DNA of 39,203 bases from a virus. The notes beneath the pieces are model-generated. The model was not told where the DNA came from. It saw only the letters and a program-made list of their open reading frames with translations, and ran no database searches. Made by a program: the position numbers and the translations under genes. Location of the stretch: IMG/VR virus record IMGVR_UViG_3300017917_003651, positions 1 through 39,203 of that record; one strand, given 5' to 3'. Numbering within the stretch: position 1 is the stretch's first letter; every line of letters starts with the position of its first letter. Below are positions 7,664 through 27,809 of the stretch, in pieces.

Positions 7664-7951
7664 ATGTCATTAGAAGCACTTTTTAACGCAGTTATCGTAA
7701 AACCAGTAGAAGTAGAAGAAACTTCATATGGTGGAATTATCGTTCCAGATTTAGGAAATGAAAAAAATAAAACAGGTAAAGTTGTATCCGTAGGTAATGG
7801 TTACTATTCAGTTACTGGAACTTGGATGGATACTATTTTACAAGAAGGAGATGTTGTTGTATTACCTACAATGGGATTCACTAAATTTGATTATGAAGGT
7901 GAAGAATATTGGATTGGTAGAGAAAATGATATTTTAGCAAAAATTAATTAA
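7664..7951 (+). CDS. groES: Co-chaperonin GroES
   Basis: The lid of the GroEL chamber, a heptamer of about 10-kDa subunits. The 95-residue sequence matches GroES throughout: LFNAVIVKPVE at the N-terminus, the mobile loop with GGIIVPD near residues 23-29 that docks on GroEL, GKVVSVGNG, and GDVVVLP with a C-terminal DILAKI strand. Length is normal. It differs from T4 gp31 in being a plain GroES of bacterial length. It precedes groEL by one base, as in bacterial groESL operons. Confidence 0.92.
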   Translation: MSLEALFNAVIVKPVEVEETSYGGIIVPDLGNEKNKTGKVVSVGNGYYSVTGTWMDTILQEGDVVVLPTMGFTKFDYEGEEYWIGRENDILAKIN

Positions 7952-7952
7952 C

Positions 7953-9563
7953 ATGAGCAAAATTATAGAATTCGGTCCAGATGGACGTAAAAAATTAGCA
8001 GAAGGTATTGAAAAATTATCTAATGCTGTGACTGCTACTTTAGGTCCTAATGGACGTAATGTAGTGATAGCAAATGGAGGTATTCCTCAATCTACAAAAG
8101 ATGGTGTTACTGTAGCAAAATCTATTACTTTAGAAGATCCAATGGAAGAAGTTGGTGTTCAATTAGTTAAACAAGCAGCTATTAAAACAGCAGAATTAGC
8201 TGGTGATGGTACTACTACTTCTACTTTACTAGCATCAGAAATGATTAAAGCTGGTTTAACAGAATTAAGTAATGACCGTAATGCAGTTGAAATTAAAAGA
8301 CAAATGGATACTGCTGTAAAACAAGTAATTGGAGCTTTACATGATGAAATTAAACAAGATATTTCATCTGAAGAACAATTAAAACAAATCGCTACTATCT
8401 CAGCTAACAATGATCCTGAAGTAGGTGAATTGATTGCTACTGCAATGCAGAAAGTAGGTCGTGAAGGTGTTGTGTTTATTGAAGAATCTAAAAACGGAGA
8501 AACATATCTTGAAACAGTAGAAGGTATGCAGTTTGATAGAGGTTATAAATCACCTTATTTTGTAACTGATAATAATTCAATGAGTACTACTATCAATGAT
8601 CCTTACATTTTGATTGCTGATAAGAAATTTACTACTGTAAAAGAATTATTACCTATTTTAGAGGCAGTTTCAAATCAAAATAAACCTTTAGTTTTAATTG
8701 CTGAAGATATTGATGGTGAGGCTTTAGCTACTTTGATTGTAAATAAGGCTCGTGGTATTTTGAAAACAGTTGCTGTTAAAGCCCCTGATTTTGGAGATCG
8801 TAGAAAATTATTACTTGAAGATATTGCTATCATGACTGGTGGACAAGTATTCAGTACTGAAAAAGGTATGAAACTTGATAAATTCAGTTGGGATTGGTTT
8901 GGTCAAGCACGTGTTGTTACTGTAGGTAAGGATGAAACCACTATTGTTGATGGTAAGGGTGATGCTAATAAAATTACTGCTCGAATCGAAGAATTACAAA
9001 CTCAAATTGATAATGCAACTTCACCATATGAAAAAGAAAAATTACAAGAACGTTTAGCTAAATTTGTAGGTGGAGTAGCTATTGTACACGTAGGTGGATT
9101 TACAGAATCTGAAATGCGTGAGAAAAAAGACCGTGTAGATGATGCTTTACAAGCAACTAAAGCTGCTCTTGAAGAAGGTATTGTACCAGGTGGTGGAGCT
9201 GCTTTATTACATGCTCGTGAACATATTGAAAGAGATTCTATTGGAGCAGATATTGTTTATAAAGCTTGTGGTGCCCCATTTAAGAAAATTTTAACTAATG
9301 CTGGTATTGATCAAGAATATATTTTTCATGCTATGAATGAAATTAGAATGGCTGAATATTGGATTGGTTATAATCTAAAATCAGATGAATTTGTAAACAT
9401 GAAAGAAGAAGGTATTATTGATCCAGCTAAAGTAACTCGTACAGCACTTGAAAATGCAGTATCAGTAGCAGGAACAGTATTATTAACAGAAGCTGTTGTA
9501 GTTGACAAACCCGAAGATAAGAAAGATGACGGAGGGTTTGGAGATATGATGGGAATGATGTAA
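7953..9563 (+). CDS. groEL: Chaperonin GroEL
   Basis: A full-length 536-residue chaperonin that folds proteins in an ATP-driven double ring. It carries ATP-site motifs TLGPNGRNV, TKDGVTVAK (D50) and GDGTTTS (D85), the conserved VDDALQATKAA with the hydrolysis Asp, IVPGGGAALL, and apical-domain blocks EGMQFDRGYKSPYF and KAPDFGDRRK. The C-terminus ends GGFGDMMGMM like cellular GroEL. All key residues seen are intact, so it should be active. The groES-groEL pair is complete, unlike the phages that borrow host GroEL and supply only a cochaperonin. Codon use looks like neighbouring phage genes, suggesting long residence. Confidence 0.97.
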   Translation: MSKIIEFGPDGRKKLAEGIEKLSNAVTATLGPNGRNVVIANGGIPQSTKDGVTVAKSITLEDPMEEVGVQLVKQAAIKTAELAGDGTTTSTLLASEMIKAGLTELSNDRNAVEIKRQMDTAVKQVIGALHDEIKQDISSEEQLKQIATISANNDPEVGELIATAMQKVGREGVVFIEESKNGETYLETVEGMQFDRGYKSPYFVTDNNSMSTTINDPYILIADKKFTTVKELLPILEAVSNQNKPLVLIAEDIDGEALATLIVNKARGILKTVAVKAPDFGDRRKLLLEDIAIMTGGQVFSTEKGMKLDKFSWDWFGQARVVTVGKDETTIVDGKGDANKITARIEELQTQIDNATSPYEKEKLQERLAKFVGGVAIVHVGGFTESEMREKKDRVDDALQATKAALEEGIVPGGGAALLHAREHIERDSIGADIVYKACGAPFKKILTNAGIDQEYIFHAMNEIRMAEYWIGYNLKSDEFVNMKEEGIIDPAKVTRTALENAVSVAGTVLLTEAVVVDKPEDKKDDGGFGDMMGMM

Positions 9564-12844: not shown

Positions 12845-13039
12845 ATGACAAATAAAAAGGATATGACATTAACCTCTGTGAAAGTACAGAGCGAGTTATT
12901 TGAACAGTTCAAAATTAATTGTGTTAAGTACAAATTTTCTTTACAAAAGCTTGCTGATCGAGCTATTCATTTGTATATTACTGATGAAGATTTTAGAAAA
13001 AAAATGCACAGCCACAACAATTTAGACATTAAAGATTAA
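12845..13039 (+). CDS. Ribbon-helix-helix-like DNA-binding protein
   Basis: A 64-residue protein with a short first strand (TLTSVKVQS), a helix (ELFEQFKINCVKYK) and a second helix (LQKLADRAIHLYI), the order seen in Arc/CopG-type repressors. A longer reading from TTG 12779 would overlap the nuclease gene and cross an AT-rich gap, so ATG 12845 is preferred. It sits just before the carbohydrate block and could regulate it; that is inference. No matching operator was identified. Confidence 0.6.
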   Translation: MTNKKDMTLTSVKVQSELFEQFKINCVKYKFSLQKLADRAIHLYITDEDFRKKMHSHNNLDIKD

Positions 13040-13049
13040 AATTAGTTAC

Positions 13050-14486
13050 ATGAAAGATAAATTAGGTTATTTACCTCCTGAACAGAGGAAAAAGATTTTG
13101 CTTATCTGTGATGACATTAGAGTTCATTCAGGTATTGCAACAGTTGCTAGAGAAATAGTTATTCATACAGCGCATCATTTTAATTGGGTAAACGTGGCAG
13201 GAGCTATTCAACACCCAGAAAAAGGACAACGATTTGATTTAAGTGTGGATACTAATACAAATGCTGGTATTAATGATTCATCTGTATTTTTATATCCTGT
13301 TGATGGATATGGAGATGCTGAATTTATTAGACAACTTATTAAATTCGAAAAACCAGATGCTATTATGTTGATTACTGATCCTCGTTATTTTGTATGGTTA
13401 TTTCAAATCGAAAATGAAATCAGAAAACATATTCCAATTACATATTTAAACATTTGGGATGATTATCCAGCACCACTTTATAATAAACCATACTATGAAG
13501 CTTGTGATTTGTTAATGGGTATTTCAAAACAAACTGTTAATATTAATAAATTAGTATTAGGTACTAAAGCTGATAATAAAATTATTACTTATGTTCCTCA
13601 TGGTTTAAATAATAAAATTTTCAAACCATTAGATAAAAATGATTCCGCATTAAAAGAATTTAAGAAAAATTTGTTTAAAGGTAAAGAATATAATTTTGCT
13701 TTATTATTTAATTCTAGAAACATTAGACGTAAACAAATTCCTGATACAATTTTAGCTTATAAGTATTTTATTGATCAATTACCTGAATCTGAAGCTAAAA
13801 AATGTGCTTTAGTATTACATACAGAACGTATTAGTGAACATGGTACTGATTTAGATGCTGTTTTAGAATTATTATGTAGCGAGCCAAAATATAATGTTAT
13901 ATTTACGGATGCTAAATTTGATGCTAATCAAATGAATATGTTATATAATAGTACAGATGCTCAAATTTTATTAACATCTAATGAAGGATGGGGATTAAGT
14001 TTAACAGAAGCTATTTTAGCAGGTAGACCTATTATTGCTAACGTAACCGGAGGTATGCAAGATCAAATGAGATTTGAAGATGAAGATGGAAATTGGTTTA
14101 CACCTACTCCTGAAATACCTTCAAATCATAATGGTACTTTTAAAAAGCATGGTGAGTGGGCATTTCCCGTATTTCCAAGTTCAAGAACACTAGTTGGTTC
14201 TCCTCCAACTCCTTATATTTGGGATGATACTTGTAATCCAGAAGATGCTGCTAAACAAATTATGGCTGTTTATAATTTAACTCCTGAACAACGCGAAGAA
14301 AAAGGATTAAAAGGTAGAGAATGGGCTTTAAGTGATGAAGCAGGATTCACCTCAGAACACCAAGCTGAAAGAGTTATTAATGCTATGGATAAATTATTTA
14401 ACACTTGGAAACCAAGAGAAAAATATGAACTAATTAATGTTAATGAATATCCAGACAGAACTTTAAATCATAAATTATTATATTAA
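13050..14486 (+). CDS. GT4-type glycosyltransferase
   Basis: A 478-residue GT-B glycosyltransferase that would transfer a sugar from a nucleotide donor. The N-terminal Rossmann start KKILLICDDIRVHSGIATVA has the acceptor-side Gly-rich turn. The C-terminal donor site shows SNEGWGLSLTEAILAGRPI near residue 312, the E-x7-E motif of GT4 enzymes. The acceptor is unknown. It opens the sugar region and is followed one base later by a second GT4-like gene, suggesting sequential action on one glycan. Confidence 0.85.
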   Translation: MKDKLGYLPPEQRKKILLICDDIRVHSGIATVAREIVIHTAHHFNWVNVAGAIQHPEKGQRFDLSVDTNTNAGINDSSVFLYPVDGYGDAEFIRQLIKFEKPDAIMLITDPRYFVWLFQIENEIRKHIPITYLNIWDDYPAPLYNKPYYEACDLLMGISKQTVNINKLVLGTKADNKIITYVPHGLNNKIFKPLDKNDSALKEFKKNLFKGKEYNFALLFNSRNIRRKQIPDTILAYKYFIDQLPESEAKKCALVLHTERISEHGTDLDAVLELLCSEPKYNVIFTDAKFDANQMNMLYNSTDAQILLTSNEGWGLSLTEAILAGRPIIANVTGGMQDQMRFEDEDGNWFTPTPEIPSNHNGTFKKHGEWAFPVFPSSRTLVGSPPTPYIWDDTCNPEDAAKQIMAVYNLTPEQREEKGLKGREWALSDEAGFTSEHQAERVINAMDKLFNTWKPREKYELINVNEYPDRTLNHKLLY

Positions 14487-14487
14487 A

Positions 14488-15795
14488 ATGAAACCGTTAT
14501 TTATAATTAGTTGTCCTATTGATACCTATAGTGGGTATGGAGCTCGTTCTAGAGATTTAGTTAAAGCTATTATTGAGCTTGATAAATACAATGTACAAAT
14601 TTTACCTCAACGTTGGGGAGGTACACCTTGGAATTTTATAGAAGATCATTTTGAGGAATGGGGTTTCTTACAAAAACATTTATTGACTACTCCTCAATTA
14701 CCTAAACAACCTGAAATTTGGGCTCAAGTAACAATTCCAAATGAATTCCAACCAATTGGAAAATATAATATTGGTTTTACAGCTGGTATTGAAACCACAA
14801 TTTGTGCTCCAGACTGGATTGAAGGTGTAAATAGAATGGATGTTACATTTGTTTCTTCTCAACATTCTAAAAAAGTATTTGAAGAATCTAGTTTTGAACA
14901 AAGAGATCAAAACACAAACCAAATGGTTAAACTTATTAAATTAGAAAAACCAGTTGAAGTATTACTTGAAGGAGCAAATTTAAATACTTATTTACCTATT
15001 GATTCTAAAGAGATTACAGATATTGATTTAAATAATGTTAAAGAATCTTTTGCTTACTTATTTGTAGGTCATTGGATGCAAGGAGATTTAGGTGAAGATA
15101 GAAAAAATGTAGGTTTATTAATTAAAGCGTTTTTTGAAACCTTTAAAAACAAATCCAAAAAACCAGCATTGATTTTAAAAACATCACAAGTTGGTGCTTC
15201 TTATATGGATAGAGAAGACATTATTAAAAAAATCAAATTAATTAAAAAAACAGTTAATTCTGAAAATTTACCTAATGTTTATCTATTACATGGAGAATTT
15301 TCAGACCAAGAAATGAATCAACTTTATAATCATCCAAAAGTAAAAGCAATGGTTAATTTAACTAAAGGAGAAGGTTTTGGTCGTCCATTACTTGAATTTA
15401 GTTTAGTTAAAAAACCTATTATTACTACAAATTGGTCAGGTCAAGTAGATTTCTTAAATCCTGAATTTGTTCCAATGGTATCAGGACAATTAACTAATGT
15501 TCATCCAAGTGCTGCTAATCAATGGTTAATTAAAGAATCACAATGGTTTACTCCTGATCATGGTCAAATTGGTTTTTATTTAAGAGATATATTTGAAAAT
15601 TATAAAAAATATCAAGAAGGTGCTAATCGTCAAGCTTATAGAAGCAAAACAATGTTTAGCTTTGAAAAAATGAAAGAAACAATTGACAATTATTTAACTC
15701 AATTTGTTCCTGAATTTCCAAAACAAGTAGAAATTAAACTTCCTACTTTGAAAAAAATTGAATTACCTAAAAAAATTGAAATAAAAAATGGATAA
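14488..15795 (+). CDS. GT4-type glycosyltransferase
   Basis: A 435-residue GT-B glycosyltransferase. The N-terminus CPIDTYSGYGARSRDLVKA resembles the acceptor domain loop, and GEGFGRPLLEFSLVKKPII near residue 293 is the E-x7-E donor motif. The last 25 residues are a Lys/Pro/Glu-rich low-complexity tail with repeated KIEL/PKKIE units. It is related in architecture to the preceding gene but not a close copy. Donor and acceptor cannot be told from sequence. Confidence 0.85.
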   Translation: MKPLFIISCPIDTYSGYGARSRDLVKAIIELDKYNVQILPQRWGGTPWNFIEDHFEEWGFLQKHLLTTPQLPKQPEIWAQVTIPNEFQPIGKYNIGFTAGIETTICAPDWIEGVNRMDVTFVSSQHSKKVFEESSFEQRDQNTNQMVKLIKLEKPVEVLLEGANLNTYLPIDSKEITDIDLNNVKESFAYLFVGHWMQGDLGEDRKNVGLLIKAFFETFKNKSKKPALILKTSQVGASYMDREDIIKKIKLIKKTVNSENLPNVYLLHGEFSDQEMNQLYNHPKVKAMVNLTKGEGFGRPLLEFSLVKKPIITTNWSGQVDFLNPEFVPMVSGQLTNVHPSAANQWLIKESQWFTPDHGQIGFYLRDIFENYKKYQEGANRQAYRSKTMFSFEKMKETIDNYLTQFVPEFPKQVEIKLPTLKKIELPKKIEIKNG

Positions 15796-18492: not shown

Positions 18493-19124
18493 TAAAAGAA
18501 AACTATTCAGGAGAAACAATCGACAGTTTAATTCCTTTCTTTAAATTGAATGTTAAAGGAATACTACATGTTGGTGCTCACAAATGTGAAGAACAAGACG
18601 TATATTTAAAATATACATCAAATGAAAATATATATTGGGTTGAGGCCATAGATTATTTAGTTGAGGAAAACTTAAAATCAAAACCTGAATTAAATTTAAT
18701 TAATGAATGCATAGGTGATGTAGATGGTAAAGAAGTAACTTTTAAAATATCAAATAACACTTTAAGTTCATCTATGTTAGAATTAGGTGAACATAAAAAT
18801 CTTCATCCAAATGTATCTTTTGTTAAGGTTTTAGATAAAAAGACAAAAACATTAAAAACCATTTTAGAGGAAAACAAAATAGAAAATAAATTTAATTTAT
18901 TAGTTTTAGATCTTCAAGGTGCAGAATTGTTAGCTTTGAAAGGTTTAGGTGATTTATTAGATAATTTTGATTTTATTTATACTGAAGTAAATGAAAAAGA
19001 AATTTATTTAGATTGTGTTTTGTTAAAAGATTTAGATATTTATCTAAGTAATTTAGGTTTTGACAGAAAATATTTAAACACACTTAATAGTTATGGAAAC
19101 GCTTTATACATCAAAAAACATTAA
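18489..19124 (+). CDS. FkbM-family methyltransferase
   Basis: A 211-residue SAM-dependent O-methyltransferase of the FkbM type, often used on sugars or polyketides. The SAM motif is GILHVGAHKCEEQDVY near residues 23-38, followed by the acidic WVEAIDYLVEEN loop, CIGDVDGKEVTF, SSSML, and FNLLVLDLQGAELLALKG with the DxQGxE family block. The end IYTEVNEKE and NALYIKK complete the fold. It would methylate a sugar of the glycan made here. The next gene starts 32 bases inside its end. Confidence 0.85.
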   Translation: MIKENYSGETIDSLIPFFKLNVKGILHVGAHKCEEQDVYLKYTSNENIYWVEAIDYLVEENLKSKPELNLINECIGDVDGKEVTFKISNNTLSSSMLELGEHKNLHPNVSFVKVLDKKTKTLKTILEENKIENKFNLLVLDLQGAELLALKGLGDLLDNFDFIYTEVNEKEIYLDCVLLKDLDIYLSNLGFDRKYLNTLNSYGNALYIKKH

Positions 19125-19716
19125 TGAATTAAATACTAAAGGTTTTACTTATTTAGATAATGTTTTACCTTTAGATTTAGCTAATCAATTACATGAGCTT
19201 TATGTTCAAGAACAAGAATGGAATTTACTTGATCAAGTTAGAGAAAACCATTATAGCCATGTTTTTAAATCCCCTAATCCATTTTTACCCCAAGAAGGAG
19301 AAGCTTATTCAGCTAAATTTAATAGATCTACTTCTTTAGAAAATAATGAAGTAATTAAAAACACTTTTAATAATTATTTAGTACCTATTCTTAAAAACAT
19401 TTCCCCATTTGAAATGAGTGAATATGATGTTAGATGCTATAAATTAGATTCAGGTGATTATTATAGAACTCATATTGATGATTATGCTGGTACTATTAAT
19501 ATGATTTATTATGTAAATAAAGAATGGAGATGGGATTGGGGAGGAATATTAAATGTATTATCTCATGATGATTTAGAATTCTGTGAATCGGTATTTCCTA
19601 AATTTAATAGAGTAGTATTATTAAATAATAAAGTATTTAGAGCTCCTCATTTTGTTAGTACAGTAGAAAAATATGCTTTGAACCCTAGATATTCTATTGT
19701 ATCTTTTAATAAATAA
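19093..19716 (+). CDS. 2-oxoglutarate/Fe(II)-dependent oxygenase
   Basis: A 207-residue prolyl-4-hydroxylase-like oxygenase. The iron ligands are H127 and D129 (THIDDYAG) and H186 (APHFVSTVEK), and R199 in NPRYSIV would hold 2-oxoglutarate. WGGILNVL lies between, as expected for the double-stranded beta helix. It hydroxylates an unknown target, perhaps a protein side chain or a sugar. The best start is ATG 19093, overlapping the FkbM gene by 32 bases; no later Met precedes the N-terminal fold. Confidence 0.85.
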   Translation: METLYTSKNINELNTKGFTYLDNVLPLDLANQLHELYVQEQEWNLLDQVRENHYSHVFKSPNPFLPQEGEAYSAKFNRSTSLENNEVIKNTFNNYLVPILKNISPFEMSEYDVRCYKLDSGDYYRTHIDDYAGTINMIYYVNKEWRWDWGGILNVLSHDDLEFCESVFPKFNRVVLLNNKVFRAPHFVSTVEKYALNPRYSIVSFNK

Positions 19717-19727
19717 AAAACAAACTA

Positions 19728-20612
19728 ATGGTTATATTTTCAAACTTCAGAGATTCTGAATCTGATCCTTATTTACTTTTTATTAAGGAAAAATATAAAG
19801 ATAAGCCTTTTACTTTTTGGTACGATAGACTTCCTACATCAATAGAGGAATTAAGAATTAATCCTTATAATTTTTTATTTCTTCATGAACCAAATGAATT
19901 TTTTGGTCTTCACGATAATGCTTTAAAAATAAGAAATTATTTTACAGCTATTTTAACGTGGAATGAAAAATTATTATCTACTTTAGATAATACATTTTGT
20001 TTTACTTATAGTGGACAAACATTAGATAATGATTATATTAATAATCTTAATACTAAAGAGTTTAATGTATCTTTTTTATGTGGAACTAAAAAATTAGTTG
20101 AAGGTCATAATTTAAGACATAAAGTATATGATTTAAAAGACCAAATTACTATACCTAAAAAATGGTATTATGTCTTAGAAGATTATGATTTAGAAACAAA
20201 TACAAGACCTGGTTATACTGAATATTCTAAAGATTTATCTCATATTCCTCAAGGTGTTGATCCTATTAGTTATGGTAGAAGAACATTATTTGATACTTCT
20301 ATGTTCAACGTTGTGATTGAAAATGTAAATTATAAAAATTGGTATAATAAAATAGGAGATAATTTTGCTACTAAAACAATTCCAATCTATTGGGGTTGTT
20401 CCAATATCAGTGATTTTGGATATGATGAAAGAGGTATATTAAGATTTGATACACCAGAACAATTAATTAAATTAATAAATGATTTAACTCCCGAGTTATA
20501 TCAACAAATGTTACCTTATGTAGAATATAATTATGAATTAGTTAAGCAAGATACATTTGAAAATAATATAAGTCAATTTTTTAACAGTTTTATAGAATTA
20601 AATAGTTTATGA
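19728..20612 (+). CDS. GT10-like fucosyltransferase
   Basis: A 294-residue enzyme with the alpha-1,3-fucosyltransferase (GT10) donor-site signature: YGRRTLFDTSMFNVVIEN, then TKTIPIYWGCSNISDF around residues 215-230. These match the conserved VIEN...T-x-x-P-I-Y-W-G block that binds GDP-fucose. A GDP-6-deoxy sugar donor is consistent with the Gmd-like enzyme downstream. The N-terminal half is poorly conserved, as usual for acceptor domains. It ends with an ATGA overlap into the RmlC-like gene. Confidence 0.8.
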   Translation: MVIFSNFRDSESDPYLLFIKEKYKDKPFTFWYDRLPTSIEELRINPYNFLFLHEPNEFFGLHDNALKIRNYFTAILTWNEKLLSTLDNTFCFTYSGQTLDNDYINNLNTKEFNVSFLCGTKKLVEGHNLRHKVYDLKDQITIPKKWYYVLEDYDLETNTRPGYTEYSKDLSHIPQGVDPISYGRRTLFDTSMFNVVIENVNYKNWYNKIGDNFATKTIPIYWGCSNISDFGYDERGILRFDTPEQLIKLINDLTPELYQQMLPYVEYNYELVKQDTFENNISQFFNSFIELNSL

Positions 20613-21103
20613 GAGTACAAGTACTGCCCGATGTAGGGATTTACAAACACAATGTTCATTATGATTTCAGAGGTGAATTATGGACATTATGGAAAGAAGA
20701 TGAGTTTCCAAGAACCGATTTAAAATTTAATCATGACAAAGTATCTACCTCTAGAAAAAATGTTTTAAGAGGTATTCATGGAGACACTAAGTCATGGAAA
20801 CTAATAGAGTGTTTATATGGCGAATTATACTTTGTAGTAGTTGATAACAGACCTGATTCACGGAATTATGGTAACTGGACAAGTATGATGTTATCAGACA
20901 AAACTAGACAATCAGTTTTATTACCTCCTGGTTTTGGGAATGGATTTTGTGTAATGAGTGAACATTCAATCTTCCATTACAAATGGGCTTATCCAGGTAA
21001 ATATCCAGATGTAGAAGATCAATTTACTTTAAAATGGAATGACCCTAATTTAGGAATTGAATGGCCTATTGATAATCCTATTTTACAAGGAAGAGACAGA
21101 TAA
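20609..21103 (+). CDS. RmlC-like dTDP-4-dehydrorhamnose 3,5-epimerase family protein
   Basis: A 164-residue cupin of the RmlC family, whose members epimerise 4-keto-6-deoxy sugars. Seen are YDFRGELW, NVLRGIHGD with the catalytic His, WKLIECLYGELYFVVVD, PPGFGNGFCVMSE and the Tyr region FHYKWAYPGKY. It is a little shorter than typical RmlC (about 180) but has the expected active-site elements. It probably works on the nucleotide-sugar made by neighbours; because the pathway here looks GDP-based, the substrate may not be dTDP-linked. Confidence 0.8.
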   Translation: MRVQVLPDVGIYKHNVHYDFRGELWTLWKEDEFPRTDLKFNHDKVSTSRKNVLRGIHGDTKSWKLIECLYGELYFVVVDNRPDSRNYGNWTSMMLSDKTRQSVLLPPGFGNGFCVMSEHSIFHYKWAYPGKYPDVEDQFTLKWNDPNLGIEWPIDNPILQGRDR

Positions 21104-21144: not shown

Positions 21145-21771
21145 ATGAATATTCCCTCACATTATCAAAAAGTTAGAGATGTAAATATTACAGCGGAAGA
21201 ACTTATTGCTTTTGAAGATCGAGTAAAAAATGCTTACGAATCTGCTCAAGTTAAAGGTCCCGTTCATCTCTCTAAAAACAACGAACAACATCTAATAGAA
21301 CTATTCCAATACATCCATCCCGGTGATTGGGTATTTTCAGCTTGGAGAAATCATTATCATGCTTTGTTACATGGAGTTGATCCTGAAAAATTATTTGAAT
21401 GGATTAGTGAAGGTAGAAGTATGGGAACAAATAATATTAATCCTAATTTTTATGCTTCATCAATAGTAGGAGGTATTATACCAATTGCATTAGGAACAGC
21501 AATGGGTCTTAAAAGAAAAAATTCACCACGTCGTGTTTGGTGTTTTATTGGAGACATGACTATGGAAACAGGTTTATTTTGGGAAGCATATAAATACTCT
21601 CAAAACTTTAATATACCTCTTCAATTTGTAGTTGAAGATAATAACTTAAGTGTTCACACACCTACAGATATTGCATGGGGTAAAAGAATGGATGTTCCTG
21701 AGAATGTAATTTATTATTCTTACAAAATGGAATATCCTCATCATGGTACAGGTAAATGGGTTAATTTTTAA
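21145..21771 (+). CDS. TPP-dependent enzyme, diphosphate-binding (alpha) subunit
   Basis: A 208-residue protein like the PP domain of 2-oxoacid dehydrogenase E1 alpha or transketolase. The TPP/Mg motif runs from GDMTMETGLFWEA (G136-D137) to EDNN (residues 164-167). WVFSAWRNHYHALLHG near 62-77 matches the E1 alpha R-x-H active-site loop. It is about 100 residues shorter than E1 alpha. The partner Pyr subunit follows after two bases, so a two-gene enzyme is formed. Within a sugar cluster it may transfer a two-carbon unit to a keto sugar, but that is inference. Confidence 0.85.
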   Translation: MNIPSHYQKVRDVNITAEELIAFEDRVKNAYESAQVKGPVHLSKNNEQHLIELFQYIHPGDWVFSAWRNHYHALLHGVDPEKLFEWISEGRSMGTNNINPNFYASSIVGGIIPIALGTAMGLKRKNSPRRVWCFIGDMTMETGLFWEAYKYSQNFNIPLQFVVEDNNLSVHTPTDIAWGKRMDVPENVIYYSYKMEYPHHGTGKWVNF

Positions 21772-21773
21772 TT

Positions 21774-22304
21774 ATGAGATACAAAGACGAATTAGACGCA
21801 GCAATGGAATGGCTTGGTTCTAAGCCAGATACAGTTTTTATGGGCCAAGCAATTGGTTTTAGTGGACACGCTATTTCAAATACAATGGCTAAAGTTCCTC
21901 AAGACAAACGAGTTGAATTACCTGTATTTGAAGAATTACAATTAGGTATAGCAACAGGAATGGCCCTAGAAGGATGGGTACCAGTAACTTGTTATCCTAG
22001 ATTTGATTTCTTTATTTTAGGTTTAAATCAATTAGTAAATCATTTGGATAAAATGCAAGATATGTCTAAAGGAGATATGAAACCTAAAGTTATTATTCGA
22101 GTAGCAGTTGGTTCAAAAGTACCTTTTAGTGCTGGACCACAACATACTCAAAACCATACTGAAGCTATTAGACAAATGTTAACTGAAGTTAATGTTGTTG
22201 AATTAATAGAACCAGAACAAATTTATTCAGCATTTTATGATGCTTATAATAGTGATAAATCTACTTTAATTATTGAACATAGTGAATTTTATGGAAGCAA
22301 ATAA
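21774..22304 (+). CDS. TPP-dependent enzyme, pyrimidine-binding (beta) subunit
   Basis: A 176-residue protein like the Pyr domain of E1 beta or transketolase. ELPVFEELQLGIATGMALEG carries the cofactor-activating glutamate (E53 or E54), and HTQNHTEA is a likely active-site His region. The C-terminal transketolase domain found in E1 beta is absent, so with the alpha subunit this is a minimal PP/Pyr heteromer, as in split decarboxylases such as ComDE. Its last 14 bases overlap the dehydratase gene. Confidence 0.82.
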   Translation: MRYKDELDAAMEWLGSKPDTVFMGQAIGFSGHAISNTMAKVPQDKRVELPVFEELQLGIATGMALEGWVPVTCYPRFDFFILGLNQLVNHLDKMQDMSKGDMKPKVIIRVAVGSKVPFSAGPQHTQNHTEAIRQMLTEVNVVELIEPEQIYSAFYDAYNSDKSTLIIEHSEFYGSK

Positions 22305-23463
22305 TTTTAATTGGCCTTTAATAAATGATAACGTATCACCAACTGATAGACAAGTACTATCAGATTTTATTTTAAGTGGTGAAAGATTAACTAATGGACC
22401 TAAAGTTAAAGAATTTGAAAAAATTTGGTCAGAATGGTTAGGAGTAAAACACTCAGTAATGGTTAATTCAGGAGCATCAGCAAATTATATTTCAATTGCT
22501 ATGGTTAAAGAATTAAAAGGTGTTGGTGAAGTAATTGTTCCTCCTATTGGATGGGTAAGTGATTTAGCATCTGTAGCTCAATTAGGTATGACCCCAGTTG
22601 TTGTTGATGTTGATATGGGTAGTTTAGCAATTACTGCTGAGAATATTAAACGAGCAATTACTAAAGATACTAAAGCAATTGTTTTAGTTCATACTTTAGG
22701 TTTTAATGGTTTAACAGATGAAATTATAAACATAGCTAAAGAACATGATTTATTATTAATTGAGGATTGTTGTGAGTCTCATGGTGCTACTTTTAAAGAT
22801 AAAAAAGTAGGAAGTTATGGAGACATATCTTTATTTTCATTTTATTTTGGTCATCATATTACTACTGTTGAGGGGGGTGTTGTTTGTGTAAATGATAATA
22901 AACTACATGATTTAGCTAAATTATTCCGTTCTCATGGTATGACACGTGAGGCATCTCAAGAACTACAATCCCATTACCAATCTCATTACCCAGAATTAAA
23001 TCCATTATTTACATTTGCTGTAGCAGGATTTAATATGAGAAGTACAGAAATAAATGCTGTGTTAGGTATTGAGCAAATGAAGCGTTTAGATTATAATATT
23101 GCTAAACGAACTGAAAACTTAAATACTTGGTTAATGAGTTTAAATGCTAGTAAATTCTTTTTAAGTTTTAATGTTAAAGGAAGTAGTAATTTTGCTTTAC
23201 CTTTAGTATTACAATCCTCACATAGAAGTAAATTATCTGATGTTTGTAAAATTTTAGAAGAAGAAAAAGTAGAATATAGATTAGGTACAGCTGGGGGAGG
23301 TAATCAAGCATTACAGCCTTATTTACAAAAATTCCCTCATAAAGTAGAAGGTAATTTACCTGTTGCTAATTACATACACCATAATGCTTTGTATATTGGT
23401 AACCATGTTGATTTAACAGCAAGTCAAATTATTAACCTTTGTTCAAAATTAAATACAATATAA
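22291..23463 (+). CDS. PLP-dependent sugar 3-dehydratase (ColD/DdhC-like), DegT fold
   Basis: A 390-residue DegT/DnrJ/EryC1-fold enzyme. The PLP-lysine site reads SLFSFYFGHHITTVEGG: His188 stands where aminotransferases have Lys. This substitution is known in ColD and DdhC (E1), which remove the 3-hydroxyl of a 4-keto-6-deoxy hexose, rather than transaminate. LLIEDCCESHG supplies the pyridine-binding Asp159, and NSGASANY the phosphate site. ATG 22291 is chosen over an in-frame TTG 18 bases upstream. With a Gmd-like 4,6-dehydratase in the operon, a GDP-4-keto-3,6-dideoxymannose product (colitose route) is the best inference. Confidence 0.85.
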   Translation: MEANNFNWPLINDNVSPTDRQVLSDFILSGERLTNGPKVKEFEKIWSEWLGVKHSVMVNSGASANYISIAMVKELKGVGEVIVPPIGWVSDLASVAQLGMTPVVVDVDMGSLAITAENIKRAITKDTKAIVLVHTLGFNGLTDEIINIAKEHDLLLIEDCCESHGATFKDKKVGSYGDISLFSFYFGHHITTVEGGVVCVNDNKLHDLAKLFRSHGMTREASQELQSHYQSHYPELNPLFTFAVAGFNMRSTEINAVLGIEQMKRLDYNIAKRTENLNTWLMSLNASKFFLSFNVKGSSNFALPLVLQSSHRSKLSDVCKILEEEKVEYRLGTAGGGNQALQPYLQKFPHKVEGNLPVANYIHHNALYIGNHVDLTASQIINLCSKLNTI

Positions 23464-24434
23464 TGTTTAAAAATCAAAAAGTTTTAGTAACAGGTGGTGG
23501 AGGGATGATTGGTCGTTCTTTAGTAAAATTTTTAATAGAAAAAGGAGCTAAAGTAACAATTTCTGATTTAACAATTCCTTCTGATTTACCTGATGGTGTA
23601 GAATATGTCCATGCCGATTTAAGATATTTTGACCAATGTGAAAAAATTTGTCAAGGTATGGATTATGTTTTTAATTTAGTGGGAGTTAAAGGTTCACCTA
23701 AAATGTGTGCTGAACAACCTGCTGATTTTATGGTTCCAATGTTACAGTTTAATACTAATATGATGGAAGCAGCTCGTAGAGCAGATGTTAAATGGTATCT
23801 TTATACAAGTTCTGTTGGTGTTTATGCTCCAGCTGATGTCTTTTTTGAAGATACTGTTTGGTCAACATTTCCATCGCCAAATGATAGATTTGCTGGTTGG
23901 GCTAAAAGAATGGGCGAATTACAAGCTGAAGCCTATTCAATTCAGTATGGTTGGGATAAAGTATCTATTGTAAGACCAGCTAATGTTTATGGTAATTATG
24001 ATAATTTCAATCCAGCAAATGCTATGGTTGTACCTTCATTAATTAGAAAAGCTCAAGAAAATGAAGTACTTGAAGTATGGGGTGATGGTTCTACAATTAG
24101 AGATTTTATCCATGCTGATGATGTTGCTTTAGGAATGTTATTTGCTGTTGAAAATAAAGTTACCCAACCTATTAACTTAGGCTCAGGTAAAGGATACTCA
24201 ATCAAAGAAGTAGTAGATATGGTAGTTAAACATTCAGGTAAACCACTTGAAGTAAAATGGTTAACAGATAAACCAGGTGGAGATGCTATTCGTTTATTTG
24301 ATATGACTAGAGCTAAATCTTATGGCTTTGATATTTCAGTATCATTAGATGAAGGTATTAAAAGAACTACTGAATGGTTCTTGAACAATAAGGAAATTTT
24401 AGATAAACGTTATAACGCTTTTGTAAATCACTAA
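23463..24434 (+). CDS. Extended SDR, nucleotide-sugar epimerase/reductase (WcaG/ColC-like)
   Basis: A 323-residue NAD(P)-dependent sugar enzyme. LVTGGGGMIGRSLV is the cofactor turn, YTSSVGVY the Ser strand, and IVRPANVYGNYDNF with IRDFIHADDVALG the substrate region. The catalytic segment is RFAGWAKRMGE: the Lys is present, but the Tyr expected four residues earlier is Ala, with Phe five before. The enzyme may use another residue or be altered. Its likely role is reducing or epimerising the 4-keto sugar after the dehydratase. ATG overlaps the previous stop (TAATG). Confidence 0.78.
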   Translation: MFKNQKVLVTGGGGMIGRSLVKFLIEKGAKVTISDLTIPSDLPDGVEYVHADLRYFDQCEKICQGMDYVFNLVGVKGSPKMCAEQPADFMVPMLQFNTNMMEAARRADVKWYLYTSSVGVYAPADVFFEDTVWSTFPSPNDRFAGWAKRMGELQAEAYSIQYGWDKVSIVRPANVYGNYDNFNPANAMVVPSLIRKAQENEVLEVWGDGSTIRDFIHADDVALGMLFAVENKVTQPINLGSGKGYSIKEVVDMVVKHSGKPLEVKWLTDKPGGDAIRLFDMTRAKSYGFDISVSLDEGIKRTTEWFLNNKEILDKRYNAFVNH

Positions 24435-25123
24435 TGAAACGTTTTTTAATAACCGGAATTAATAGTGGATTGGGTAAGTATTTATTTAATAACTTACCCG
24501 ATTCACTTGGTTTAGATAGAAATAATTTTAATCTTGTTGGGTATAAAGATTATGATACTATAATCCATTGTGCTTTTAATAAAGAAAATATTATAACTGA
24601 TTATGAAAAATACTTAGAAGATAATATATTTTTAACTCAACGATTAAGATCTCTAAACTATAAAAAATTTGTTTATATTTCAACAGTAGATGTTTATCAA
24701 GAAAATCCAACAATGTATGCTCATTTTAAACGATTTGCTGAAACATTATTAGATAATAATGATTTAATATTGAGATGTTCAATGATGTTAGGAGATACTA
24801 TGAAACCTAATCATACCCATAAATTAAAAAATAATGATGAAAGTATAGGATTATCTGGTGAATCAGTATTTAATTACATTTTAATGAAAGATTTAGTTGA
24901 ATTTTTCATTTCAGAAGATTATAAACAATATAATGGAGTAGTGGATTTTGTTTCAAATGATTTAGTAAAATTAGAAGATGTTAAAAAATATTTTAACTCA
25001 ACCACTAAATTAGGTGAACATGTTTATCAAAATAGCTTGGATTTCGTAAATCCTATATTTACCTTGAACCAAAAATACAACAAATCCTCCCTAGACAATT
25101 TAATAGAATATTATGGAAAATAA
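24434..25123 (+). CDS. Short extended-SDR nucleotide-sugar dehydrogenase/reductase
   Basis: A 229-residue SDR-like protein: FLITGINSGLGKYLFNN for NAD(P), VYISTVDVY for the Ser strand, and YAHFKRFAE for an intact Tyr-x3-Lys. ILRCSMMLG follows as in sugar epimerases. It is about 100 residues shorter than the family norm, with a compressed N-terminal Rossmann part. It resembles RmlD-type reductases in pattern, so it could carry out the final keto reduction. TAATG and 11-base overlaps couple it to both neighbours. Confidence 0.7.
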   Translation: MKRFLITGINSGLGKYLFNNLPDSLGLDRNNFNLVGYKDYDTIIHCAFNKENIITDYEKYLEDNIFLTQRLRSLNYKKFVYISTVDVYQENPTMYAHFKRFAETLLDNNDLILRCSMMLGDTMKPNHTHKLKNNDESIGLSGESVFNYILMKDLVEFFISEDYKQYNGVVDFVSNDLVKLEDVKKYFNSTTKLGEHVYQNSLDFVNPIFTLNQKYNKSSLDNLIEYYGK

Positions 25124-26072
25124 CTTTTATAAAGGAAAGAAAGTAGTAGTGACGGGTGGTTCTGGATTTATTGGAACTCATTATTTAATTGAGTTGCTTG
25201 AAAGAGGAGCCATTGTAAAAACTCATACTCATGAAAAACCACTTCAAATTCAAGATGATAGGCTTGAAGTATTAGAAGGAATTGATTTAACAAATTTAGA
25301 AGATTGTTTTAAATTAATTGAAGGAGCAGATTATGTAATTCATTCTGGAGGGAAAATTGCTCACCCATCAACCGTACCTACTGATATTCAAATCTCAATG
25401 CAGAATATTTTAGTATTAGGTAATGTATTAGAAGCATCTTATAAATCAAATGTCAAAAGATTTTTAGATTTAAACAGCTCAACAGGCTATCCAGATATCA
25501 GAAGACCACTGACTGAAGATGAATTTTGGGAAGGTGAACCATATAAAGCTTATTTTGGTTATGGTTGGATGCGTCGTTACAGAGAAAAATTAATGGAACA
25601 CGTTTCTAAATTCTCAGGCATGGAAATCGCTTTAGCTAGAGGAACAGCTATTTATGGACCTAACGATAATTTTGATCCTAAAACATGTCATGTAGTACCA
25701 GCATTAATTAAAAGAGTATTAGATGGCGAAGATCCATTTGTTGTTTGGGGTACACCAGATGTAGTTAGAGATTTTCTATATGTTAAAGATGTAGTTAAAG
25801 CAGCTTTATTAGTACTTGAAAAAGGAGAATCAATGAGACCTTATAATGTAGGTTCTGGTACTACAGTAACAGTAGGAGATATTGTTAACGCTATTTTAAA
25901 AGCAACAGGTAAAAACCCAGAAGTAATTTATGATGAAACAAAACCAACCACTATTCCGTTTAGAATGGTTAGTACAGAAAGATTAACAAACGAGTTAGGT
26001 TTTACTCCATCTTATACTTTTGAAGAAGGAATTCAGGAAACAGTAAATTGGTATAAAGAAAATTATGTCTAA
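25113..26072 (+). CDS. Extended SDR nucleotide-sugar epimerase/reductase
   Basis: A 319-residue SDR with VVVTGGSGFIGTHYL at the N-terminus, DLNSSTGYPD as the Ser strand, and LARGTAIYGPNDNF and VRDFLYVKDVVKA as substrate blocks. The catalytic segment is YFGYGWMRRYREK, where Arg stands at the usual Lys of Tyr-x3-Lys. It shares layout with the SDR two genes upstream (for instance WGTPDVVRDF against WGDGSTIRDF), suggesting an old duplication. It would act on the same sugar pathway, most likely in epimerisation or reduction at C3-C5. Confidence 0.78.
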   Translation: MENNFYKGKKVVVTGGSGFIGTHYLIELLERGAIVKTHTHEKPLQIQDDRLEVLEGIDLTNLEDCFKLIEGADYVIHSGGKIAHPSTVPTDIQISMQNILVLGNVLEASYKSNVKRFLDLNSSTGYPDIRRPLTEDEFWEGEPYKAYFGYGWMRRYREKLMEHVSKFSGMEIALARGTAIYGPNDNFDPKTCHVVPALIKRVLDGEDPFVVWGTPDVVRDFLYVKDVVKAALLVLEKGESMRPYNVGSGTTVTVGDIVNAILKATGKNPEVIYDETKPTTIPFRMVSTERLTNELGFTPSYTFEEGIQETVNWYKENYV

Positions 26073-27075
26073 TGTTTTAATTACAGGTATAACAGGAATG
26101 GTTGGTTCACATTTAACCGACTTCCTATTAACTAATACAGATTGGAAAATTTATGGTTTGGCTCGTTGGACTGATTCTTTAGATAATTTAGAACATCTAA
26201 CAGAAGAAATCAATAAAAAAGAGCGTATTGAACTTATTTATGGTGATTTAAATGATTTAGCTTCACTAATTACAGCTATTGATAAATCAAAACCTAATTA
26301 TGTATTTCATTTAGCTGCTCAATCTTATCCACAGACTAGTTTTGATGCGCCTATAGAAACGCTTCAAACTAATATATTAGGAACCGCTAATTTATTAGAG
26401 GCATTGCGTAAATCACAATATAAAAACGCTATAACACATGTTTGTGCATCGAGTGAGGTATTTGGTCGTGTACCTAAAGATAAATTACCTATTGATGAGG
26501 AATGTACTTTCCATCCTGCTTCACCTTATGCTATTTCAAAAGTAGGGACTGATTTAGTAGGTAGATATTATGCTGAAGCATATGGAATGACTATTATGAC
26601 AACTCGTATGTTTACTCATACTGGACCAAGACGTGGAGATGTATTTTCAGAATCAACATTCGCTAAACAGATTGCAATGATTGAAGCTGGATTACAAGAA
26701 CCTAAAATTTATGTGGGTAATTTAGATTCACTTAGAACTTATGCTGATGTAAGAGATGCTGTTCGTGCTTATTATATGTTAGTAACTAAAGATCCTCAAG
26801 CAGGTGAATATTATAATATTGGGGGGACATATACTTGTACTATTGGAGATATGTTAAATTTTCTAATAAGTCAATCAACTGTAGATAATATTGAAATTGT
26901 AACTGATCCGGAACGTTTAAGACCAATCGATGCTGACTTACAAATTCCAAATTGTGATAAATTTAAAGCACATACCAATTGGGAACCACAAATTTCATTT
27001 GATACTACAATGAGAGACTTATTAAATTATTGGAGAGACAGAGTAAAATCAGGACGTAAATTTTTAAGACGATGA
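26065..27075 (+). CDS. gmd: GDP-mannose 4,6-dehydratase-like enzyme
   Basis: A 336-residue SDR close to Gmd, which makes GDP-4-keto-6-deoxy-D-mannose from GDP-mannose, the entry to fucose, colitose and rhamnose-type sugars. It has LITGITGMVGSHL, CASSEVFG with the Ser-Glu pair (S130, E131), SPYAISKVG (Y155, K159), and MFTHTGPRRGDVF, which matches the RxxNHxSPRRG block of Gmd. It is slightly shorter than the usual 370 residues. It should supply substrate for the ColD-like dehydratase. A different nucleotide-sugar is possible. Confidence 0.82.
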   Translation: MSNVLITGITGMVGSHLTDFLLTNTDWKIYGLARWTDSLDNLEHLTEEINKKERIELIYGDLNDLASLITAIDKSKPNYVFHLAAQSYPQTSFDAPIETLQTNILGTANLLEALRKSQYKNAITHVCASSEVFGRVPKDKLPIDEECTFHPASPYAISKVGTDLVGRYYAEAYGMTIMTTRMFTHTGPRRGDVFSESTFAKQIAMIEAGLQEPKIYVGNLDSLRTYADVRDAVRAYYMLVTKDPQAGEYYNIGGTYTCTIGDMLNFLISQSTVDNIEIVTDPERLRPIDADLQIPNCDKFKAHTNWEPQISFDTTMRDLLNYWRDRVKSGRKFLRR

Positions 27076-27809
27076 GATTTTTAGTAATTGGAGACAGTTG
27101 TGTTGACATTTTCCGTTATGGAAAAGTCAACCGACTAGCTCCTGAAGCACCCGTACCTATTATTATGCCTGAAAATGAAACCTCAACTCCAGGTATGGCA
27201 GGTAATGTAGTTAGAAATATAGAAGCCTTAGGACATAAAGTAGATTTTATTACTAATGTAGATGAAATTAAAAAAATTAGATATGTTTGTTCTAAATACA
27301 ATCATTTACTTTTAAGAGTAGATGAAAATGATTCATGCCAACCAGTAACTCAAAAAATATTAGATAGAATCAAATGGAGTAACTATGATGCTATTATTAT
27401 TAGTGATTATTGCAAAGGATTTTTATCTGAACAAGATATTGAATGGATATCAGCTCAACATCATTTAGTATTTTTAGATACTAAAAAAATATTAGGGGAT
27501 TGGGCTCACGATGTTGATTTTATTAAAATTAACTATAGTGAATATGAAAATAATTCTTATGTTTTATCTAAAGATAATATTTTAGCAGATAAAACTATTG
27601 TTACTAAAGGTAAACATGGTTGTACATATCAAAAAATCGATTATCCAACTAAAGAAGTATCTGTAAAAGACGTATCAGGAGCTGGAGATACATTTTTAGC
27701 TGGTTTAGTAGTAGAATATGCTCGTTCCAGAGATATAAAATCAGCAATTGATTTTGCTCAAGAATGTACAACAATAGTAGTTCAAAAAACAGGAGTATCA
27801 ACAATATGA
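27072..27809 (+). CDS. PfkB-family sugar kinase (HldE N-domain-like)
   Basis: A 245-residue kinase of the PfkB fold. LVIGDSCVDIFRYG, LAPEAPVPII and GMAGNVVRNIEALG match the N-domain of the heptose-7-phosphate kinase HldE/RfaE. The catalytic motif is DVSGAGDTFLAGL, with KGKHGCT before it. It is about 70 residues shorter than HldE-1, with a gap in the lid region near residue 60. It may phosphorylate a heptose or another sugar for activation. No nucleotidyltransferase partner is in the window. Confidence 0.8.
   Translation: MRFLVIGDSCVDIFRYGKVNRLAPEAPVPIIMPENETSTPGMAGNVVRNIEALGHKVDFITNVDEIKKIRYVCSKYNHLLLRVDENDSCQPVTQKILDRIKWSNYDAIIISDYCKGFLSEQDIEWISAQHHLVFLDTKKILGDWAHDVDFIKINYSEYENNSYVLSKDNILADKTIVTKGKHGCTYQKIDYPTKEVSVKDVSGAGDTFLAGLVVEYARSRDIKSAIDFAQECTTIVVQKTGVSTI

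Follow-up and report, generated by a model that had tools for sequence, protein, structure and literature searches.

Which sugar does a phage build with an operon that sets a predicted sugar 3-dehydratase directly behind a two-subunit thiamine pyrophosphate (TPP) enzyme? The question is raised by IMG/VR virus record IMGVR_UViG_3300017917_003651, of which all 39,203 bases were analysed and are called the window here. Its viral genes include a T4-type DNA polymerase (phrog_262, 513 bits; nearest relative in Microcystis phage Mel-JY01, 34%), clamp-loader subunits and other phage genes. A sequence-only reading of the window had proposed that one gene block makes a 3,6-dideoxy sugar, possibly with a two-carbon (C2) branch. 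According to our analysis, the operon very probably encodes a pathway to a guanosine diphosphate (GDP)-linked 3,6-dideoxy sugar, and we put the probability that this sugar carries a C2 branch at about 55%. The predictions of a ColD-type 3-dehydratase, of a dehydratase and an epimerase of the GDP-sugar type and of an E1-type TPP pair beside the 3-dehydratase are strongly supported by the sequence; the substrate, the branch, the order of the steps and the destination of the sugar we infer.

The operon and its 3-dehydratase

Nine genes run in the same direction between positions 20609 and 27809 (Table 1). A gap of 41 bases separates the cupin gene from that of the PP subunit, and all later junctions measure +2 to -14 bases, a spacing that fits a translationally coupled operon; of the eight junctions, seven thus overlap or leave at most 2 bases between the genes. 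Each gene named in the sequence-only reading was recovered by profile matches to Pfam, NCBIfam and PHROG, including the RmlC-like epimerase just upstream of the block and the three further short-chain dehydrogenase/reductase (SDR) proteins, two of them clear and the short one very divergent. The operon extends beyond that block to a heptose-kinase-like gene. Relatives were gathered by scanning IMG/VR for matches to the 3-dehydratase and to the PP subunit, which yielded 27 distinct viral contigs besides the window, a few of them near-duplicates, and the gene order was read in each. The nine-gene block is real and not a chance arrangement, because it occurs in these 27 other viral contigs and because each of the nine genes, compared with its relatives, gave Nei-Gojobori dN/dS values mostly within 0.03-0.3.

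The 3-dehydratase belongs to the DegT/DnrJ/EryC1/StrS family (263 bits) and carries YFGHHITTVEGG, with His in place of the catalytic Lys; this HH motif is invariant across nine aligned proteins (window and eight homologues). In a PDB search the protein scored 181 bits with ColD, 154 with DdhC and 140 with perosamine synthase, and the corresponding scores of a phage profile were 273, 209 and 165 bits. A maximum-likelihood (ML) tree of Lys-type aminotransferases, DdhC and ColD placed it with ColD (98/92) within the His-type clade (99/99) and apart from the lysine aminotransferases; the outcome that the sequence-only reading had named as refuting, a grouping with lysine aminotransferases, thus did not arise. 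The four-Cys [2Fe-2S] motif of DdhC, DCYCAPGCDNTC, has no Cys counterpart in the phage 3-dehydratase profile, and it is the absence of this cluster that sets ColD apart from E1/SpnQ (PMC8987622). The best NCBIfam model is RfbH, despite the placement with ColD; the iron-sulfur type of DdhC/RfbH was ruled out by the profile, the missing cysteines and the tree. Judged by these sequence features, the enzyme is a ColD-type, iron-sulfur-free pyridoxal phosphate (PLP)-dependent 3-dehydratase, as had been proposed, and a GDP-4-keto-3,6-dideoxy sugar is therefore the predicted intermediate. By analogy with ColD, it would remove O3 from a GDP-4-keto-6-deoxy sugar in a glutamate-driven reaction. ATG 22291 is a likelier start of the gene than TTG 22273. 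In one related contig (recorded as L026 and L033) the 3-dehydratase is read in two frames at 8016-9149, which suggests a frameshift or a sequencing error.

Table 1. Predicted features of the window, with the nine operon genes first.
Feature	Position	Strand	Basis or remark
RmlC-like cupin epimerase, closest to Campylobacter jejuni GDP-heptose C3/C5 epimerases	20609..21103	+	PDB scores, kept catalytic residues
Minimal E1-alpha-type TPP/PP subunit, 208 aa	21145..21771	+	E1_dh 51 bits
Minimal E1-beta Pyr-domain subunit, 176 aa, without C-terminal domain	21774..22304	+	Transket_pyr 37 bits
ColD-type PLP-dependent GDP-4-keto-6-deoxy-sugar 3-dehydratase (predicted)	22291..23463	+	ColD profile score, HH motif, ML tree, no DdhC four-Cys
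Fcl-like SDR	23463..24434	+	GDPFucSynFcl 148 bits, cut-off 500; start ATG 23463
Divergent short SDR, candidate ketoreductase	24434..25123	+	YAHFK; Epimerase PF01370 16.5 bits, below cut-off; phrog_540 E 5e-8
Fcl-like SDR, K140 to Arg	25113..26072	+	YGWMR; T/H dyad as in C. jejuni DdahC
GDP-sugar 4,6-dehydratase, DmhA (GDP-heptose 4,6-dehydratase) lineage	26065..27075	+	PDB 7us5 best match
Short HldA/RfaE-I-like PfkB sugar kinase	27072..27809	+	TIGR02198 140 bits, cut-off 345; phrog_8133, unannotated
Conserved gene just upstream of cupin	19728..20612	+	In nearly all related contigs
Two GT4-like glycosyltransferases	13050..15795	+	Pfam Glycos_transf_1

The TPP pair and the proposed branch

In the PP subunit the GD...EDN motif is invariant in 14 homologues, and so is, in the homologues of the Pyr subunit, the likely catalytic Glu E53. 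The AlphaFold model of the PP subunit (pLDDT 89) had only E1 alpha among its 50 best PDB matches; that of the Pyr subunit (pLDDT 90) had E1 beta as its best 15 (TM 0.79-0.88, and 0.86-0.88 against the N-terminal domain), with transketolases appearing after them. The C-terminal domain of E1 beta is missing from the phage pair, whose Pyr subunit has 176 aa compared with about 325. From sequence and models, the pair is of the minimal split E1 (alphaKADH2) type, with PP on alpha and Pyr on beta. When the transketolase, DXPS and YerE classes were considered, E1 fitted the PP subunit clearly better; for the Pyr subunit E1 leads and transketolase comes next.

All 27 related contigs have a TPP pair immediately before the 3-dehydratase. 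Short PP and Pyr genes occupy this position in 17; in the other ten it is filled by full-length genes for an E1 alpha of 275 aa, which shares 25-29% identity with PP, and for an E1 beta of 304 aa. Full-length E1 beta was found in these ten contigs only, and in one of them (L018) the beta gene is partial at the contig edge. Every 3-dehydratase thus has an upstream TPP pair, drawn from two unrelated sources. That one TPP enzyme has been exchanged for another at this position is, among the genomic evidence, the strongest indication that the pair shares a pathway with the 3-dehydratase. No E2 acyltransferase was found among the 28 contigs (window and relatives), which argues against a dehydrogenase complex and makes a pyruvate dehydrogenase complex unlikely. 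Because a TPP pair is always present upstream, replaced by full-length E1 in ten contigs and never joined by E2, its role is best read as the addition of a C2 branch, which we consider somewhat favoured on this genomic and sequence evidence.

The sequence-only reading had likened the pair to the TPP enzyme of yersiniose synthesis. Its PP and Pyr domains were borne out, the pair adjoins the 3-dehydratase in every related contig, and the analogy holds for the type of reaction, a TPP enzyme next to what would be a 3,6-dideoxy-4-keto sugar; the family, however, is another one. YerE is a single flavoprotein chain of the decarboxylase superfamily that acts on a cytidine diphosphate (CDP)-sugar together with the Fe-S enzyme DdhC, whereas the phage has two short E1-type chains and a GDP route. 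Closer counterparts are the sugar-branching alphaKADH2 enzymes (aldgamycin, kibdelomycin, AviB1/B2, Pau11/12), likewise two-subunit E1-like TPP enzymes in deoxysugar clusters that lack E2. For aldgamycin, kibdelomycin, avilamycin and paulomycin it has been shown or suggested that such E1-fold enzymes attach C2 branches derived from pyruvate (PMC12247030, PMC4753412). They differ from the phage pair, which lacks the C-terminal domain of E1 beta, is viral and stands with a 3-dehydratase on a GDP-sugar.

The pathway could accordingly be imagined to begin with a GDP-sugar from the host, for which GDP-mannose is the likeliest candidate and GDP-D,D-heptose a possible one; the 4,6-dehydratase would convert it to a GDP-4-keto-6-deoxy sugar. 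The 3-dehydratase, as a pyridoxamine phosphate (PMP) enzyme using glutamate, would remove O3 to give the GDP-4-keto-3,6-dideoxy sugar; the TPP pair would decarboxylate an alpha-keto acid, probably pyruvate, and attach the resulting two-carbon fragment at the C4 ketone. Inversion at C5 may fall to the cupin, and reduction of a ketone to one of the SDR proteins. Nearby glycosyltransferases would then move the sugar to the virion or to a host glycan.

The minimal PP-Pyr family corresponds to phrog_34187, unannotated in PHROG as to function, and the same minimal pair was found at ten cellular loci. The order PP-Pyr-3-dehydratase recurs in two cellular genomes (L040, L041), with a His-type 3-dehydratase, sister to the phage ones (86/85), and an HddA-like kinase. 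A Pelagibacteraceae genome (L039) has the order SDR-PP-Pyr-dehydratase, and another locus (L042) has the pair beside HddA/HddC-like genes. A fused PP-Pyr gene lies beside a Zn-dehydrogenase in two cellular genomes (L046, L047) and in the cyanophages S-SM2 and P-TIM68. A thread common to the neighbours at all these loci, including the radical SAM/SPASM ones described below, would be the making or handling of a keto sugar. A wider proposal, which we hold tentatively and at somewhat less than even odds, is that phrog_34187 is a dedicated family of carbon-carbon bond-forming, sugar-branching enzymes in the surface-glycan clusters of phages, bacteria and archaea; in the phage family of the window its product would be a C-branched 3,6-dideoxy sugar linked to GDP, and the pathway would be the first to a branched sugar in any virus and also the first to use GDP.

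Two further arrangements were observed. The minimal pair adjoins radical SAM/SPASM genes at four loci in bacteria and archaea (L043, L044, L045, L048) and in a 735-kb phage (L038). The fused PP-Pyr gene is preceded by a Zn-alcohol dehydrogenase and has an HldA-like kinase a short way downstream in two cyanophage loci (L035, 12049-13934; L036, 12001-14749) and in Parcubacteria (L047, 9986-11935).

Several observations weigh against a branched 3,6-dideoxy sugar as the product. Members of the phage PP-Pyr family are also found where no 3-dehydratase is present, next to radical SAM enzymes, Zn-alcohol dehydrogenases and heptose kinases, so that the family may act on something other than a 3-deoxy ketone. 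To our knowledge and in the review consulted, all characterised C2-branching enzymes act on CDP- or deoxythymidine diphosphate (dTDP)-type sugars, and not on GDP-sugars. Moreover, both Fcl-like SDR proteins have incomplete catalytic motifs.

Six or seven carbons, and the reductases

The 4,6-dehydratase matches GDP_Man_Dehyd (260 bits) and keeps the S-S-E/Y-x3-K catalytic set (SSE, YAISK). Its closest solved structure is 7us5 (363 bits, 51% identity), ahead of RMD (178 bits, 35%) and the Gmd enzymes (130-150 bits; 29% identity to the Gmd of S-CAM7). A canonical Gmd was rejected, the TIGR01472 score being 185 bits against an equivalog cut-off of 415. The family named by the sequence-only reading was right, while the nearest enzyme is a Campylobacter GDP-heptose 4,6-dehydratase and not Gmd. 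The nearest annotated phage relatives, in the cyanophages Bellamy and SynMITS9220M01 (53-55% identical), are themselves 73-74% identical to 7us5 and adjoin an HddA-type kinase (3k85, 258 bits) and an HddC-like transferase, a neighbourhood that by its gene content is evidently a GDP-heptose operon.

These relationships raise the question of whether the product is an unbranched GDP-3,6-dideoxy-heptose as in C. jejuni HS:5/HS:11 (PMC10440746), with the TPP pair supplying precursors, for example by a transketolase-like step towards sedoheptulose 7-phosphate, or serving another sugar. Each of the four enzyme types of C. jejuni (GDP-sugar 4,6-dehydratase, ColD-type 3-dehydratase, RmlC-like epimerase and Fcl-like SDR) has a counterpart in the operon; the dehydratase and the epimerase are closest to the heptose enzymes, and the nearest phage dehydratases sit in HddA-HddC operons. 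Moreover, several genomes have the TPP pair next to kinases of the HddA-like or HldA-like type, and the last gene of the operon in the window encodes an HldA-like kinase. We nevertheless regard a heptose product of this kind as unlikely, given the genes and residues described below and the likeness of the TPP pair to E1 and not to transketolase.

Among the 28 window-family records, which are fragments, no GHMP kinase (HddA type) and no SIS isomerase (GmhA type) was found, and NTP_transferase occurred in only two. The cupin scored about 151-161 bits with the structures 7ang, 7m14 and 8db5, compared with 90 for the RmlC structure 1dzr, and it retains equivalents of the catalytic H67, K74, N121, Y134 and D173. 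In DdahB and MlghB, Ile56 and His123 fit C7, in place of which hexose RmlC has Ser and Phe (PMC7949155). The window cupin has Ser56 and Phe123, the hexose-RmlC type; Ser56 is present in every phage copy, and residue 123 is variable. The dehydratases of the window family read TRMFTH, with F as in Gmd and RMD, whereas 7us5 and Bellamy read TRMGTH, and this exchange of F for G would likewise favour a hexose. The pocket residues and the missing heptose-supply genes thus put a hexose (GDP-mannose) slightly ahead of a heptose. Compared with the C. jejuni pathway, the phage lacks heptose-supply genes, its SDR motifs are degenerate, its epimerase residues are of the hexose type, and it has a TPP pair in addition.

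CTP_transf_like matches were found in seven records, six of them short open reading frames (ORFs) resembling RfaE domain II; the copy in L024 scored 131 bits. The HldA-like kinase may therefore activate a different sugar. In contig L007 this kinase is read in two frames (12846-13402), suggesting a frameshift or a sequencing error.

ColC and Fcl both require a Ser-Tyr-Lys set and a Cys/His dyad; in Fcl these are Ser107-Tyr136-Lys140 and Cys109/His179, and DdahC has a T/H dyad (PMC7949155). Residue alignment showed that the first Fcl-like SDR of the operon reads FAGWAK, without the catalytic Tyr and without the epimerase Cys and His of Fcl; its omega is about 0.09 against three relatives. In the second, Lys is replaced by Arg (YGWMR) and Cys by Thr, forming a Thr/His dyad. 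An intact YxxxK is found only in the short SDR, which is missing from some related contigs. Taken together with their homologues in L006-L039, the Fcl-like proteins show an incomplete YxxxK, in which Tyr has become A or G (V in other contigs) or Lys has become R, and yet they are under purifying selection.

A ColC role was rejected for the Fcl-like proteins, which have lost C109 together with Y136 or K140, and the ColC-type ending that the sequence-only reading had considered is accordingly not supported. The same losses bear on a further possible product, GDP-colitose itself or a different 3,6-dideoxyhexose without a branch, derived from GDP-mannose, with the TPP pair acting on a second sugar. 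The His-type, Fe-S-free ColD enzyme on a GDP-sugar and the Fcl-like SDR proteins recall the ColD/ColC pathway, and no TPP pair accompanies the Gmd, Fcl, ColD-like and GT11 genes of cyanophage S-CAM7. In the window family, however, the dehydratase is not a canonical Gmd, no SDR has the ColC/Fcl catalytic set, and the additional TPP pair is never absent beside the 3-dehydratase, so that we consider such a product quite improbable.

Destination of the sugar and precedents

Upstream of the operon lie two GT4-like genes, of which 13050-14486 scored above the Glycos_transf_1 cut-off and 14488-15795 just below. The conserved gene next to the cupin, which had no Pfam or PHROG match, may resemble a GT10-type fucosyltransferase. 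The glycosyltransferases are accompanied by a 2-oxoglutarate (2OG)-Fe(II) oxygenase gene (19093-19716), and elsewhere in the family contigs have dioxygenase-like and methyltransferase-like genes of other kinds in this region. The window further encodes tandem GroES-like and GroEL proteins (7664-9563; GroEL phrog_5725, 519 bits).

Phages with sugar-modified DNA exist, and the window holds several glycosyltransferases and nucleotide-metabolism genes. That the sugar modifies phage DNA instead of a virion protein or host surface glycan is nonetheless very improbable, since the neighbouring glycosyltransferase, FkbM and 2OG-oxygenase genes resemble those of a surface-glycan cluster and no gene for DNA-base hypermodification was recognised.

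Cyanophages carry parts of the set, namely a ColD-like gene (S-CAM7/ACG-2014f), fused PP-Pyr with an HldA-like kinase (S-SM2/P-TIM68) and DmhA (Bellamy/SynMITS9220M01), but a TPP pair joined with a 3-dehydratase was found in none of their annotated regions that were consulted. No paper on 3,6-dideoxy or branched sugars of phages was found in the open-access literature searched, which was of limited coverage. A partial precedent is the Gmd/Fcl/ColD-like set of S-CAM7, but the sources searched contain no earlier case of such a phage set combined with a minimal TPP pair.

If the proposed C2-branched GDP-3,6-dideoxy sugar is indeed the product, a T4-like phage family would make a sugar by a route not described in any virus, and viruses would make rare sugars by carbon-carbon bond formation, beyond only transferring sugars. 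An uncharacterised family of minimal TPP enzymes, met repeatedly next to heptose kinases, Zn-dehydrogenases and radical SAM enzymes, would also gain a function. Since the enzymes of the operon are short and cheap to assay, the products of phage sugar clusters become directly testable.

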